A stretch of 35,067 bases of DNA from Caldifarciminota bacterium (GTDB taxonomy: Bacteria; Hydrothermota; 32-111). The notes beneath the pieces were generated by a model. That model was not told the origin of the DNA, did no database searches, and saw nothing but the letters and a program-made list of their open reading frames with translations. Where the stretch lies: contig JAUVJU010000007.1 of NCBI GenBank assembly GCA_030592285.1, positions 1 through 35,067 on the forward strand, written 5' to 3'. The position numbers were made by a program, and so were the translations under genes. How positions within the stretch are numbered: the first letter of the stretch is position 1; the number at the start of each line of letters is the position of its first letter. Positions 413 through 31,096 of this stretch are shown here, one piece after another.

Positions 413-1582
413 ATGAATTACAAAAAAATATTTTTCATTTTATTTTTATTATCATTATATTTATTTATAGTAGGTTCCGGAACATACTGGAATACATTAA
501 ACCAAAATCCATTTTCAATATATGACATCTCTTCAATTACAGTTTATCCTACAGTTATGCTTGATGATGTTGGATTAAAACAGGAAATAGTTTTTGATTA
601 TTCATCAGATTATGTAAATTTTATTGGATCCATACAGGGAGAATACGGAAGAATAGGACTATTTATCTATAAGAGCGAAGATAATTATTTGCAGTCATAT
701 TTGCAGCAATTCACAAATAGAATAATTGATCCAATAATAATAGGTACATTTGCAGGTAAAAAAATTGGAAAGGTAAATATTGCAATTGGAGCAAAGGGCT
801 TTATGGTTAAGGATTATACTGTTGATGATCTTTCGGTATATGATAATATTAATGCTGATTTTTCACAAATACAATTAAATCCTTCATTTTCTGTTCAATT
901 GCCTGGAAATATAATTGCTGAAATAAGTCCGGAAATTATTTTAAGATCAGGAAATTACGAGGATTATATTAAAACAGTAGAATCAGAAAACAATATTGGC
1001 TATTCAGTGAATGGTAGAGTGATTCAAAATATAAGTGGAAATAATATTCAGGTTTTTGCACATTACTCATCACAGCCATGTTCTTATATATTGACTGAAA
1101 ATGATCAGACAGATAATTATTTTAGTAAAAAAGATTCTTTAGAAATTGGATTATTATTATGTCTGGAAACTTTTAATTATATTAATTCCTATGTAGGAAT
1201 TAATTATGTTAATACAGTTCTTTTTGATAGTTTGAGATACTATAATGGATCTGATTCAAAAAATAGACAAACAGTTACTATTTTTCCTGAAACAAATTTT
1301 GGATTTGATGTATTCATTAATAGACATATTAGTCTTCAATTTGGAGTAAAAGGACAATGGATAAATTCAATAGAAGAATTATCTCCTAGTCTTAATCCTC
1401 AAAAAAATGAAACATCTTTTTCATGGGATTATTTATTAGGAACAAGATTAAAATATAATAATTTTATAATTGATTTTGGTTTTGGAAAAAACATTTTATC
1501 TATTCCATTTATTTTGTCAGGCAATACACTTGCTGATTCAGAAATCAGATTTGGTGTTTCCTATAATGGTTTTGAATATTAA
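413..1582 (+). CDS. Predicted outer-membrane beta-barrel protein encoded inside the rRNA operon
   Basis: The gene encodes 389 residues. ATG 413 is preceded by AGGGAG at 401-406 with 6 bases between, a good ribosome site. The N-terminus is Lys-rich then hydrophobic (about residues 4-21), a likely Sec signal. The rest has alternating polar/hydrophobic segments rich in Tyr, Asn, Ile and Gly, with antiparallel barrel-like strands, and ends in aromatic Tyr as outer-membrane barrels often do. I recognise no named family, so function is unknown; a small porin-like or surface protein is an inference. The gene fills the spacer between tRNA-Ile and tRNA-Ala. It has no obvious promoter of its own, so it is probably transcribed from the rRNA promoter. 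Its TAA stop (1580-1582) is immediately followed by tRNA-Ala. Base composition and codon use look like neighbouring genes, so it does not appear to be a recent phage or intron-type insertion. Confidence 0.85.
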   Translation: MNYKKIFFILFLLSLYLFIVGSGTYWNTLNQNPFSIYDISSITVYPTVMLDDVGLKQEIVFDYSSDYVNFIGSIQGEYGRIGLFIYKSEDNYLQSYLQQFTNRIIDPIIIGTFAGKKIGKVNIAIGAKGFMVKDYTVDDLSVYDNINADFSQIQLNPSFSVQLPGNIIAEISPEIILRSGNYEDYIKTVESENNIGYSVNGRVIQNISGNNIQVFAHYSSQPCSYILTENDQTDNYFSKKDSLEIGLLLCLETFNYINSYVGINYVNTVLFDSLRYYNGSDSKNRQTVTIFPETNFGFDVFINRHISLQFGVKGQWINSIEELSPSLNPQKNETSFSWDYLLGTRLKYNNFIIDFGFGKNILSIPFILSGNTLADSEIRFGVSYNGFEY

Positions 1583-1655
1583 GGGGGTATAGCTCAGCTG
1601 GGAGAGCACCTGCTTTGCAAGCAGGGGGTCAGCGGTTCAAGTCCGCTTACCTCCA
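1583..1655 (+). tRNA. tRNA-Ala (TGC anticodon), CCA not encoded
   Basis: The cloverleaf has acceptor GGGGGTA pairing with TACCTCC. This includes the G3-U70 wobble that identifies tRNA-Ala. The D stem is GCTC/GAGC, the anticodon stem CCTGC/GCAGG holds loop TTTGCAA, and the T stem is GCGGT-type with loop TTCAAGT. After discriminator A1655 the sequence is CTTTTTTT rather than CCA, so CCA must be added enzymatically, unlike the tRNA-Ile of the same operon. The first base directly follows the stop codon of the preceding protein gene. Confidence 0.97.
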
Positions 1656-1785: not shown

Positions 1786-4799
<3,014 letters not shown>

Positions 4800-4806
4800 T
4801 ATCTTT

Positions 4807-4818
4807 TCGCAAATTATT
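4807..4818 (+). other. 23S processing stem, 3' arm
   Basis: TCGCAAATTATT is the perfect complement of 1761-1772 and completes the precursor helix around 23S rRNA. Confidence 0.8.
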
Positions 4819-4840
4819 ATGTCTTTAATATTTATATTAT

Positions 4841-4949
<109 letters not shown>

Positions 4950-4958
<9 letters not shown>

Positions 4959-27309: not shown

Positions 27310-28968
27310 ATGAAATACAGTAAAGTGCTGTTTCTAATATTAATTTTTTTAATGATCATGGGTTGTTCCAATATGGATGATTATCCTATTGCAAAAGTGG
27401 GGAATAGGTATTTTTATAAAAGCCAGTTTCAAAGAATTTTCACTGGAGTAAAAGCAACTGATGATATTACCATATGGAAAGAAAAAGCTGATGTTATTTT
27501 AGAAAACACTATGAAACAAATGGCAATTCTTGAAATGGGTTTATTAGATGATGATTTAAGAAAAGTGATTGAGAAATCCTATGATAAATCAATAAATGCA
27601 TCATTAGTTCAAGTGGTTTATAAAGACCTTGTAACAAAAAATGAAAATGTTCCTGAAAAAGAGGTTCTTGAAAAATACAAAAGATTAAATACTACATTTG
27701 GGACGCAACATATTCTTGTTGATAATAAGAAACTTGCCGATAGTATTTATAAAGTATTGAAAAAAGAACCATATAAATTTGGATTATTAGCAAAAAAACA
27801 TTCAACGGATACCAATACAAAAGATAATGAAGGAAAAATGAAACCTTTTCCAGGTAGTACATTTATAATTGAATTTGAAAATGCCTGTTTAAATCAAAAG
27901 CCAGGCATAATCGGAAAACCAGTTAAAAGCACATTCGGGTATCATATTATCATTGTTAATAAAAGAGAATTCAAAACACTTGAAAATTATGATAAAGATA
28001 AGGAAGATCTGAAACAGAAAATGATTGGAGAGAAAAGAAAGAAACTTGAACAGGAATCAATGAAGTATCTTGAAAAACTTATTCATTGGAAACCATATAC
28101 AGAAAACATTAAAATATTTCTTGCAAACACAGATGATAAAATTCTGTATATAGATCCGGACTCACTTGAATGGGCAATCAGAAATTTACCACTTGTTCAT
28201 TCAGCAATGGGTACATGGACATATGATGATTTGTATAAATGTAATAAGGAGTATGAATTCGGACCTATTCCAAATACAACAGAAGAGGCATTTAATAATT
28301 ATATGGATAGAACAATGTTTTTCCTATCTCTCTATAACAGAGGAAAGAGAATGGGAGGGCATCTGAATAATGAAACTAAAAAGGAAATTTTCCTTAAACT
28401 TGCAATAATAAGTGAACAGGAATTTGCAAAGAGTATTAGAAAAGAAACCAATCCCAGCGATAGTGTTCTCAATGTTTTTTATACAGATTTTTCAGAGAAG
28501 TTTATGGAAAAAGGCAAAGTAGGGATTTTTATTATCTCTAATCCTGACAGTAATGTAATAAAGATTATTGATGACTCTTTGAAAACAAGTAATAAACCAT
28601 TTAAAGAATTTTCAAGAATTTATTCAACATTGAAACCAAAAGAATTTTCTAAACCAGCATATTATAGAAAAACTGAAGATGATACACTAGGTTACTATGA
28701 GCAAGGTATGATGCTTGGAGAAGCAGGGATGGTTTCAGAAATCTTTAAAAATAGTTATGGTTATAATATTATTAAAGTTATGGAGATACGAAAACCCCAA
28801 ATGAAGAACTTTGACAGAATTAAAAATCAAATTAAAAATGAATATATAAGACATATTATTACATTAAAAGTTAATGAAGAATTTGAAAAGACAAAAGAAC
28901 TTCTGGGAGTAGAAGTATATGAAAAGAATTTTGATAAAATGATTAAAGAAATGTTTAATAACAAATAA
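27310..28968 (+). CDS. Lipoprotein peptidyl-prolyl isomerase with two parvulin-like domains
   Basis: The gene encodes 552 residues, with AGGAGGT before ATG 27310. The signal ends in the lipobox MIMGC (about 15-19). A SurA/PrsA-type helical N-domain (about 25-125) leads to a parvulin domain (about 130-215) with FGTQHILVD, then DNEGKMKPFPGSTFIIEFENA and TFGYHIIIVNKRE. A second, divergent parvulin-like domain lies at about 390-500, with SYGYNIIKVMEIRKP. It is likely a periplasmic foldase or holdase for outer-membrane proteins, anchored by lipid. It is the first of three such genes in a row. Confidence 0.88.
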   Translation: MKYSKVLFLILIFLMIMGCSNMDDYPIAKVGNRYFYKSQFQRIFTGVKATDDITIWKEKADVILENTMKQMAILEMGLLDDDLRKVIEKSYDKSINASLVQVVYKDLVTKNENVPEKEVLEKYKRLNTTFGTQHILVDNKKLADSIYKVLKKEPYKFGLLAKKHSTDTNTKDNEGKMKPFPGSTFIIEFENACLNQKPGIIGKPVKSTFGYHIIIVNKREFKTLENYDKDKEDLKQKMIGEKRKKLEQESMKYLEKLIHWKPYTENIKIFLANTDDKILYIDPDSLEWAIRNLPLVHSAMGTWTYDDLYKCNKEYEFGPIPNTTEEAFNNYMDRTMFFLSLYNRGKRMGGHLNNETKKEIFLKLAIISEQEFAKSIRKETNPSDSVLNVFYTDFSEKFMEKGKVGIFIISNPDSNVIKIIDDSLKTSNKPFKEFSRIYSTLKPKEFSKPAYYRKTEDDTLGYYEQGMMLGEAGMVSEIFKNSYGYNIIKVMEIRKPQMKNFDRIKNQIKNEYIRHIITLKVNEEFEKTKELLGVEVYEKNFDKMIKEMFNNK

Positions 28969-28977
28969 GGAGCTTAA

Positions 28978-29832
28978 ATGAATACCAAGTTTAGAATTTT
29001 AATTGTATCATTATTAGCAATTATTTTAACCCTATCATCCTGTACAGAGAAAAAAAGCAAATTTACACAATCAGGCAAAAAGATCATAAAAGTCAACAAT
29101 GAATACATTACAGATGATCTAATTGGCTTGTTTGGTGACATCAATATGATTGATGAGCAACAGAAACAAATCCTATTAGATGAATTGATAAACAATTTCC
29201 TTATATATAATGAGGCACTTGAATCAGATGTAATGAATGATACAATATTTGTTAATCAACTTGAATTACAAAAGCGACTTGCTATTGCTAACAAATTTTT
29301 GGAAAAAAAATTGCAGGAAATGGTTCCAACCCCTGCTGAAAATGAATTACAGGGATACTATCAGTTAAATAAAAAGAAATTTGATGAGAGTAGAAAATTT
29401 GCTGTAATCTTTATTCATCCACAATTTGGAAAATCATTTGCTGATTCTCTTCATGATTTAATAAAAAGAGGAAGAAAATCATTTAGAAACACTGCAAAGG
29501 AGTTTTCAATAGATACTATTACAGGAAAAAATGGCGGTGTTATTGAAAAATATTTTTCCTTTAAAGATTGGACAATGATGGGATATCCTGTTCTTGATTC
29601 AATTGGTTTTAATTTGAAAAAGAAGGGTGAATTTTCTGAACCAATACAAACAATGCAGGGTGCATATGCTATTATAAAAATTATGGATGTTATTCCTTCA
29701 AATAGTAGCTACACTCAATTAAGACAATTAATATTAAGTGTTGTTTATCAGCAGAAAAGAAATATAAAATTTCAGGAATATATTGATAAATTAAGACAAG
29801 AGGCTAACATTGAATACTTTGATCAAAATTAA
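28978..29832 (+). CDS. Lipoprotein with a parvulin-like domain
   Basis: The gene encodes 284 residues. AAGGAG sits 6 bases before ATG 28978. The signal ends in the lipobox LSSC (about 20-23). A short SurA-N-like helical region (about 40-120) precedes a degenerate parvulin domain (about 130-250) with KFAVIFIHPQF, KNGGVIEKYFSF and GAYAIIKIMD, matching parvulin strand positions. The HxxL/catalytic HIS-type residues are not well conserved, so it may be a chaperone rather than an isomerase. It sits 9 bases after the previous foldase and overlaps the next by 23 bases. Confidence 0.82.
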   Translation: MNTKFRILIVSLLAIILTLSSCTEKKSKFTQSGKKIIKVNNEYITDDLIGLFGDINMIDEQQKQILLDELINNFLIYNEALESDVMNDTIFVNQLELQKRLAIANKFLEKKLQEMVPTPAENELQGYYQLNKKKFDESRKFAVIFIHPQFGKSFADSLHDLIKRGRKSFRNTAKEFSIDTITGKNGGVIEKYFSFKDWTMMGYPVLDSIGFNLKKKGEFSEPIQTMQGAYAIIKIMDVIPSNSSYTQLRQLILSVVYQQKRNIKFQEYIDKLRQEANIEYFDQN

Positions 29833-31096
29833 TTTAGTATTTCTTATTGTATTTATCTTTATTGGTTTGTATGCAGAGGATATACTGCTAGAGAGGATTG
29901 CTGTTGTAATAAATGAAACTCCAATACTTCAAAGTGAGATTAATAAGGGGATTGATATTATTGAATCATCCCCTTTTTACTCTGACCATATTAAGGATTC
30001 ATTGAAGAATCACTTTATTGAATCATTAATAGATGAAAAGATATTGTACCAAATTTCACGGGAAGAAAGCATAAAGATTGACTCTTCATCAATATATATG
30101 AATGTAAAAAAGTATATTAATGAAACATTAAAATCAAGTTTTCCAGATGCAAATGCATATGAGGAGTTTTTAAAAGCAAATAATGTAAATGAGAAAGAGT
30201 TAGAATATTTCTACTTTAAACAGAGAGAATTGTCTTTTATTAAACAGCAGGTTCTTTATAAAAAAATGATAACTCTAAAAATAAATAATAGTGAAATTGA
30301 CGATTATTATGAAGAAAACAGGGACTCTTTCTATATTCCAATAACACTGGATCTCTATCACATTGCTTTTGTTATTCAGCCGGATTCAATGAATCTTATG
30401 TCGGTAATGCAGAAAGTAGATGCACTTGTTAGATCATTAAAAAGCGGCTCTCCTTTTTCAGAAGTAGCAAAACAATACTCTGATGATGAATCTTCTAAAT
30501 ACAGTGGTGGTCTTATAAAATATATAAGATATGGAGATATAAGCCATGAAATGGTAACATTTCTTTACACATTTAAAGAATCAGACACACTAATTTACAC
30601 CCAATCCAGAGAGGGCTTTCATATTATTAAAATTGAGAATGCAGATAATGAAGGGATAGAATATAGACAGATTGTTGTTAAATTCAATATTGATAGAGAT
30701 GACTCAATAAGAATAAAAAGTAAAACAAAAGAAGTGAAGAATTTAATTGAGAATGGAAATTTAAGTTTTGAGGAGGCAGCTCAGAAGTATTCTGATGATT
30801 ATGCAACTGGGATAAAGGGTGGATTTGTAGGACGAATTCCAATTACATCAATAGAGGGTGAAATAAAGAAAATGCTTGAAAATCTTGAAAATGATAAGGT
30901 CTCATCAATAATGAATAGCGATTTTGGATATGAATTATTTATGGTAAGAAATAAAGAGGGTGGGTATGAGAGTTCCTTTGAAGACGTAAAACCATTTATA
31001 AGAAGTATTCTTGAAGGGAAGCAAATTGAAAAGAAAATAAAAGAAATTATTAAGAATGAACGGGCAAATATGTATATAAAGAGAATGGATGGATAA
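29810..31096 (+). CDS. surA: SurA-type periplasmic chaperone/peptidyl-prolyl isomerase
   Basis: The gene encodes 428 residues, the size of E. coli SurA. A TTG start at 29810 is chosen: GAGG lies 6 bases upstream and it gives a full signal peptide (about 1-22, ending GLYA). Residues 25-170 are the SurA_N domain (AVVINETPILQSEINKGI). The first parvulin domain covers about 177-280 (LYHIAFV, EVAKQYSDDESSKYSGG, GFHIIKIEN). The second covers about 283-390 (YRQIVVKF, EEAAQKYSDDYATGIKGG, FGYELFMVRNK). SurA escorts outer-membrane barrels such as those encoded in this window. It overlaps pdxA by 8 bases, the surA-pdxA order known from proteobacteria. Confidence 0.9.
   Translation: MNTLIKINLVFLIVFIFIGLYAEDILLERIAVVINETPILQSEINKGIDIIESSPFYSDHIKDSLKNHFIESLIDEKILYQISREESIKIDSSSIYMNVKKYINETLKSSFPDANAYEEFLKANNVNEKELEYFYFKQRELSFIKQQVLYKKMITLKINNSEIDDYYEENRDSFYIPITLDLYHIAFVIQPDSMNLMSVMQKVDALVRSLKSGSPFSEVAKQYSDDESSKYSGGLIKYIRYGDISHEMVTFLYTFKESDTLIYTQSREGFHIIKIENADNEGIEYRQIVVKFNIDRDDSIRIKSKTKEVKNLIENGNLSFEEAAQKYSDDYATGIKGGFVGRIPITSIEGEIKKMLENLENDKVSSIMNSDFGYELFMVRNKEGGYESSFEDVKPFIRSILEGKQIEKKIKEIIKNERANMYIKRMDG

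Follow-up and report, generated by a model that had tools for sequence, protein, structure and literature searches.

Does a protein-coding gene that is wedged between two tRNA genes of an rRNA operon, with its stop codon directly against the second tRNA, give rise to a tRNA-punctuated mRNA, that is, a message whose ends are made by tRNA processing? The question is raised by the first 5 kb of the window (the whole 35,067-nt stretch of DNA analysed), which comes from a genome of WOR-3, a phylum now called Caldifarciminota at NCBI. The canonical order 16S, tRNA-Ile, tRNA-Ala, 23S, 5S is present on one strand, but, unlike in a canonical bacterial rRNA operon, the 16S–23S spacer contains a protein gene (413–1582), here called omp. 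As the 16S ends at 259 and is followed by the 23S at 1787–4794 and the 5S at 4842–4958, the omp ORF lies inside the rRNA operon.

Layout of the rRNA operon and its spacer

1–259, + strand: 3′ end of the 16S rRNA, truncated at the contig boundary (Rfam RF00177)
280–290, + strand: probable 3′ arm of the 16S processing stem, GTGGTAGTGCA; the 5′ arm would fall off the contig (in loci L008 and L011, this arm finds its 5′ partner in front of the 16S)
309–385, + strand: tRNA-Ile(GAT), CCA encoded (ARAGORN and Rfam; single pattern match in the window's genome)
386–412, + strand: 27-nt leader with AGGGAG at 401–406 (sequence; promoter scan)
413–1582, + strand: omp gene, 389 aa, predicted outer-membrane beta-barrel with a signal-peptide-like start (by eye) and C-terminal GFEY
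1580–1582, + strand: TAA stop codon, directly abutting tRNA-Ala (sequence and ARAGORN)
1583–1656, + strand: tRNA-Ala(TGC) (ARAGORN and Rfam; single TGC pattern match found in the window's genome)
1657–1663, + strand: T-run right behind tRNA-Ala, which may act as a weak terminator
1685–1713, + strand: promoter-like site TTGACA-17-TATATT, 11/12, before the 23S (consensus scan; recurs in relatives)
1760–1794, + strand: 23S processing stem, 5′ arm (83% complementarity with 4785–4819)
1787–4794, + strand: 23S rRNA (Rfam RF02541)
4785–4819, + strand: 23S processing stem, 3′ arm
4842–4958, + strand: 5S rRNA (Rfam RF00001)

A sequence-only reading of this locus had placed the TAA at 1580–1582 against a tRNA-Ala beginning at 1583, and the end of tRNA-Ile 27 bases before the ATG, and these positions proved exact: Rfam and ARAGORN agree on the 5′ ends of both tRNAs, and the ORF runs from ATG to TAA with exactly 27 bases between the tRNA-Ile CCA and the start codon. 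AGGGAG in the leader is a plausible ribosome-binding site. The leader could fold at 386–420 into a hairpin of 10 bp in which the start codon region is paired. Both tRNAs are probably essential, since tRNA-Ala(TGC) and tRNA-Ile(GAT) each have a single match in the window's genome. Elsewhere in the window, three adjacent ORFs (27310–31096) resemble SurA/PpiD-type outer-membrane chaperones by eye.

The omp gene and its predicted product

The omp gene is single-copy in the window's own genome. Pairwise dN/dS values between congeneric or confamilial homologues were 0.20 (G004/G002), 0.16 (the pair from family f2), and 0.33 (the pair from family f15), with synonymous sites near saturation in these comparisons and fully saturated in the G003/G001 pair. 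These substitution ratios indicate that omp is under purifying selection, and the ORF is considered real because of these values (approximately 0.16–0.33) and because homologues occur in all four other genomes of the window's family. Codon usage, considered as a sign of high omp expression, was rejected as such: omp ranks 25th of 49 genes, relative to a small reference of two ORFs (rpsG and fusA, named by eye), and thus shows no high-expression signature.

No named family in Pfam, PHROGs, or NCBIfam matched the window protein above cut-off. In Pfam, DUF5442 was the sole match (18.2 bits, under the cut-off of 27), and the cut-off of PF13505 (OMP_b-brl), which the window protein fails, is passed by the homologue from family f11 (36.1 vs. 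28.7 bits). An AlphaFold2 model built from five sequences (mean pLDDT 73.4, pTM 0.69) is a barrel made up mostly of beta strands, and its best matches among solved structures are two entries of PopA, 9gf0 (E 2e-6) and 9ga1 (Z 21.3, 293 aligned residues, rmsd 3.7, 11% identity), the next protein being CymA (Z 17.5). The omp product is thus predicted to form a beta-barrel of PopA-like fold in the outer membrane. PopA is described as the major outer-membrane protein of Bdellovibrio bacteriovorus, forming a radial pentamer (PMC12228718). By analogy, the omp protein may resemble it in abundance or oligomeric state.

Conservation within the family and across the phylum

Homologues of omp occupy the same site between the same tRNAs in 4/4 other genomes of the window's family (f1), with 27–31% identity to the window protein, so that the tRNA-Ile/omp/tRNA-Ala layout is present in all five f1 genomes. 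ARAGORN called both tRNAs in G002 and G003. A run of N interrupts tRNA-Ala in G001, and the G004 contig begins inside tRNA-Ile, though Rfam still assigns that tRNA a score. In G003, an ORF with inverted ends that looks by eye like a transposase of the REP-associated type is found between tRNA-Ala and the 23S (L002:2815-3594), and a similar one follows the run of N in G001. In a single-sequence search with the window protein, the remaining 55 of the 60 relatives yielded no homologue at E ≤ 0.001.

To look beyond this family, 16S 3′ flanks were read. A 16S match was found in 88 of the 146 genomes of the phylum, and the flanks read were those retrieved as loci plus 40 further places rather than every match; in most of these, no 23S follows the 16S inside the available stretch. 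A barrel-like ORF follows 16S and tRNA-Ile in f2 (two genomes), f11, f14, and f15 (two genomes), and a shorter ORF of 296 aa does so in f19 (two genomes). Three genomes (G067, G077, and G146) have normal spacers without an ORF. A fourth ORF-free spacer (G007:C155) was excluded and read as foreign, given the strong divergence of its 16S tail from the tail on the genome's other 16S contig.

Profile comparison linked the f1 proteins to those of f8, f11, f14, and f15 (354 columns, probability 96.7, E 3.7e-10), and the joint 11-row profile has matches in 48 of 147 genomes. The f2 spacer protein had no clear homology by sequence and, with a weak match to the wider profile (E 0.0012, probability 19), was rejected as a demonstrated omp homologue; the f19 spacer proteins are absent from the joint-profile matches and are barrel-like by position and by eye alone. 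In f2, a lipoprotein-like gene lies directly after tRNA-Ala (L065:3737-4573 and L064:1669-2496).

Among the 39 matches at E ≤ 1e-10, 11 are the profile rows themselves and 28 are independent. Thirteen of these 28 (f3, n = 3; f8, n = 2; f12, n = 2; f17, n = 4; f23 and f26, one each) are flanked on their own strand by a tRNA-Ile up to 100 nt upstream or a tRNA-Ala up to 120 nt downstream. For a random gene, we estimate the chance of such neighbours at about 1/1000, assuming that each of the two tRNAs is present once in a genome of some two thousand genes. The other 15 matches (the f11 second copy, an N-terminal piece in f12, f19, n = 4, f27, n = 6, f29, f33, and a cut f3 piece) lack an adjacent tRNA-Ile or tRNA-Ala and are counted against the explanation preferred below; two of them are full or partial genes cut by the contig end soon 3′ of the match, and a third nearly so. 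No 16S end was seen upstream in the available stretch in f17, f23, f26, f21, f3, and f12, and the gene therefore appears to be tied to the tRNAs rather than to the 16S as such. Stand-alone cassettes in f26 and f21, likewise with no upstream 16S end seen, consist of a promoter-like site 40–42 nt upstream of tRNA-Ile, 17 nt containing GGAGG, omp, and tRNA-Ala. In f17, an ORF upstream of tRNA-Ile also ends on that tRNA's first base (L150:16-1404 and L152:176-1396).

Junction distances

The distance from the stop codon to tRNA-Ala G1 ranged from −10 to +267 over 20 junctions, of which 8 fall in −10 to +3. ARAGORN positions were corrected by one base by eye in G144, G059, G018, G021, and G003, and the G001 gap was read by eye. 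Distances per family are as follows:

Stop codon to tRNA-Ala: f1 0, 0, 3, about 20, 24; f2 −10, −10; f26 −1; f11 1; f21 1; f3 10, 34, 75; f8 10, 63, 64; f12 41, 118; f15 102; f14 267
tRNA-Ile to start codon: f1 13–27 nt; f2 19; f19 11–17; f21 and f26 17; f17 20–69; f23 24; f11 48; f14 and f15 about 100 or more

The exact zero gap is thus shared by only 2/5 f1 members, and the zero-base junction is not conserved in relatives. The sequence-only reading had counted variable long spacers in relatives as evidence against a punctuated mRNA, and, given the range within f1, such variability is indeed partly found. On sequence comparison, then, it is the tRNA-framed outer-membrane gene that is conserved and not the exact zero gap, and the suggested tRNA-punctuated layout is well supported: tRNA-Ile followed after 11–69 nt by omp, omp followed by tRNA-Ala, or both, recur in many WOR-3 families, including two rRNA-free cassettes.

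In the sister family f2, the TAG stop codon coincides with bases U8-A9-G10 of tRNA-Ala, so that RNase P cleavage would strip the stop from the mRNA. The earlier idea that translation and tRNA maturation could compete at this junction gains support from this overlap.

Transcription units and the preferred explanation

The promoter scan returned 12 sites vs. 9.7 expected from shuffles, and therefore only the score (11/12) and the recurrence of the site at 1685–1713 count. This is the best + strand promoter-like site in 240–1800, and similar tandem sites precede the 23S in G001, G002, and G003 and the 16S in L008 and L011. A 35-nt stem (83% complementary) encloses the 23S alone in the window, and a stem of 19–21 nt encloses the 16S in L008 and L011. 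With separate stems for the two rRNAs and promoter-like sites before the 23S, the operon falls into two apparent units, 16S-tRNA-Ile-omp-tRNA-Ala and 23S-5S. The scan found no terminator-like site after the window's tRNA-Ala.

We consider it fairly probable that the locus represents a conserved mixed stable-RNA/mRNA unit, in which 16S, tRNA-Ile, omp, and tRNA-Ala would form one transcript cut at the tRNAs, followed by 23S-5S with its own promoter. The rrn promoter would drive the first unit, and the omp message, having no promoter of its own, would be produced along with 16S rRNA. Processing of the tRNA-Ile 3′ end would release a short omp leader with its ribosome-binding site, and an RNase P cut at tRNA-Ala G1 would fix the mRNA 3′ end at or beside the stop codon, so that synthesis of the outer-membrane barrel would be tied to rRNA transcription. 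The enzymology of RNase P and of tRNA 3′-end processing is known, and it is from this together with the layout that we infer co-transcription and cutting at the tRNAs, and with them a coupling to growth. Against this reading weigh the varying stop-to-tRNA gap, the lack of a high-expression signature in omp codon usage, the f2 and f19 spacer proteins with no clear sequence homology, and the mean pLDDT of 73 of a model built from five sequences. In such a layout, ribosome production would be hard-wired to the synthesis of an outer-membrane protein, which may be the main one, through a very simple arrangement that lends itself to testing.

Tight packing of tRNAs and protein genes

The junction may also be read as passive compaction, in which the lineage packs tRNAs tightly into protein operons and the abutting stop is just a short gap with no role in mRNA-end formation or regulation. 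We regard this as quite possible, at a little short of even weight, and it fits the genome-wide pattern. We counted tRNA/CDS gaps using ORFs of at least 100 aa, without gene calling, in three genomes, all within the phylum. In the window's genome (G000), a same-strand ORF stop lies within −10 to +10 of 9/40 tRNAs (opposite strand, 1/40), an ATG ORF start lies at most 30 nt downstream of 13/40 (opposite strand, 0), and 4 tRNAs have both. The corresponding counts are 7/40, 12/40, and 2 in G004 (opposite-strand controls, 4 and 0 for stops and starts), and 0/47 stops and 10/47 starts in G022 of family f13 (controls, 3 and 0). The spacer junction is one case of a wider habit in the window's family, and because 9/40 tRNAs in G000 have tight stops, the zero gap taken alone is one instance of that habit. 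The differing gap sizes between close relatives also agree with compaction. However, packing alone does not predict that the same gene stays beside the same two tRNAs despite the loss of 16S linkage in several families, and a stop codon at tRNA bases 8–10 forces a conflict whatever its origin.

This overlap extends beyond the rRNA operon. In G000, a 197-aa ORF, rdgB-like by eye, has its stop at U8-A9-G10 of tRNA-Pro(TGG) (L204, G000:C26:11863), and in another genus the tRNA that opens the corresponding cluster (G004:C1:61056-61131) shows the −10 gap as well. Where the tRNA supplies the stop codon, as in f2 and the rdgB-like case, cleavage must leave a stop-less message, and such cases offer a direct test of whether translation and RNase P compete. 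A broader proposal is that tRNAs serve throughout the phylum as processing marks in protein operons, with stops at the tRNA border or at U8-A9-G10, so that each transcript would end up as a translated mRNA or as a mature tRNA but not as both, and the output of the major outer-membrane protein, tRNA-Ala, and 16S would be coupled in one processing decision; this we hold to be rather unlikely.

Genes downstream of tight loci in G000 (e.g. L210, L208, L222, and L258) are by eye tyrS-, prs-, tig-, pfkA-, and thrS-like. On G000:C88 (L199, L200, L205, and L260), a Thr-Tyr-Gly-Thr tRNA cluster precedes a piece of an EF-Tu-family gene, as at E. coli tufB.

An independent promoter or an assembly artefact

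A separate omp promoter hidden in the 16S, tRNA-Ile, or the leader would make omp independent of rRNA transcription, which we judge improbable: the consensus scan found no + strand promoter-like site in 240–413, so that tRNA-Ile and the coding sequence lie on the same strand with none between them, as in a tufB-type operon, and the leader is just 11–27 nt in f1, f2, f19, f21, and f26. Consensus scans do miss non-sigma-70 promoters, and in f3 and f12 the homologue must have its own promoter, since it has no tRNA-Ile upstream there. That an unrelated gene was joined into the spacer by misassembly has a negligible probability and is refuted in the main. All genomes are drafts (the titled ones MAGs) and the G001 region has runs of N, but separate assemblies of five genomes agree, L008 is free of N from the 16S through tRNA-Ala into the 23S, and other families likewise show homologues attached to these tRNAs.

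Comparison with known systems

At the level of search results, we found no report of an rRNA operon whose tRNA-Ile and tRNA-Ala enclose a protein gene, of unlinked rRNA genes in WOR-3, or of bacterial tRNA punctuation. E. coli is known to make transcripts that combine tRNAs with mRNA; there, thrU-tyrU-glyT-thrT-tufB is co-transcribed. The window shares with this operon the succession of tRNAs and a protein gene on one strand, which would tie the protein to stable-RNA promoters. In E. coli, 114 nt separate thrT from tufB, and the annotation of the stretch read shows no tRNA beyond tufB, whereas the window gene sits in an rRNA spacer, between two tRNAs at distances of 27 and 0 nt, and has a predicted outer-membrane product. 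The reverse arrangement is that of E. coli secG-leuU, in which a single transcript carries a protein gene and then a tRNA and RNase P plays a part, going by the title of a reference in PMC3985628. As far as that title indicates, the protein gene and tRNA-Ala of the window, with their proposed joint transcript, resemble it. To our knowledge, secG-leuU has neither an upstream tRNA nor rRNA, and its stop codon does not touch or enter the tRNA.

Buchnera has 16S units with ORFs and no 23S, the 16S and 23S being transcribed apart, according to PMC7761764. On that description, the likeness is a protein gene in a 16S unit and separate transcription of 16S and 23S; the difference is that Buchnera is a symbiont with unlinked genes, whereas WOR-3 keeps one gene between tRNA-Ile and tRNA-Ala even where 16S and 23S are linked. 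For PopA, the main text does not contain the terms rRNA or tRNA (PMC12228718). PopA is the top structural match of the modelled window protein (Z 21.3 over 293 residues), but with 11% identity over the match the likeness is one of predicted monomer fold, whereas the PopA superfamily comprises radial oligomeric outer-membrane proteins (pentamers, tetramers, or hexamers) that enclose a lipid chamber.

The nearest parallel in layout is mitochondrial tRNA punctuation, in which tRNAs frame the coding sequence, their excision makes the mRNA ends, and stop codons lie at the tRNA border. The likeness suggested by the sequence-only reading holds in part: tRNAs frame omp and its stop codon lies at the tRNA border, with a 3′ gap of 0 but a 5′ gap of 27 in the window, and 8 of the 20 omp/tRNA-Ala junctions fall in −10 to +3. 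Unlike in mitochondria, there is a 27-base leader with a plausible ribosome-binding site, the stop codon is complete, and not every gene is framed. If the preferred explanation holds, tRNA punctuation, best known from mitochondria, would extend to a bacterial phylum, in its rRNA operon and across the genome.
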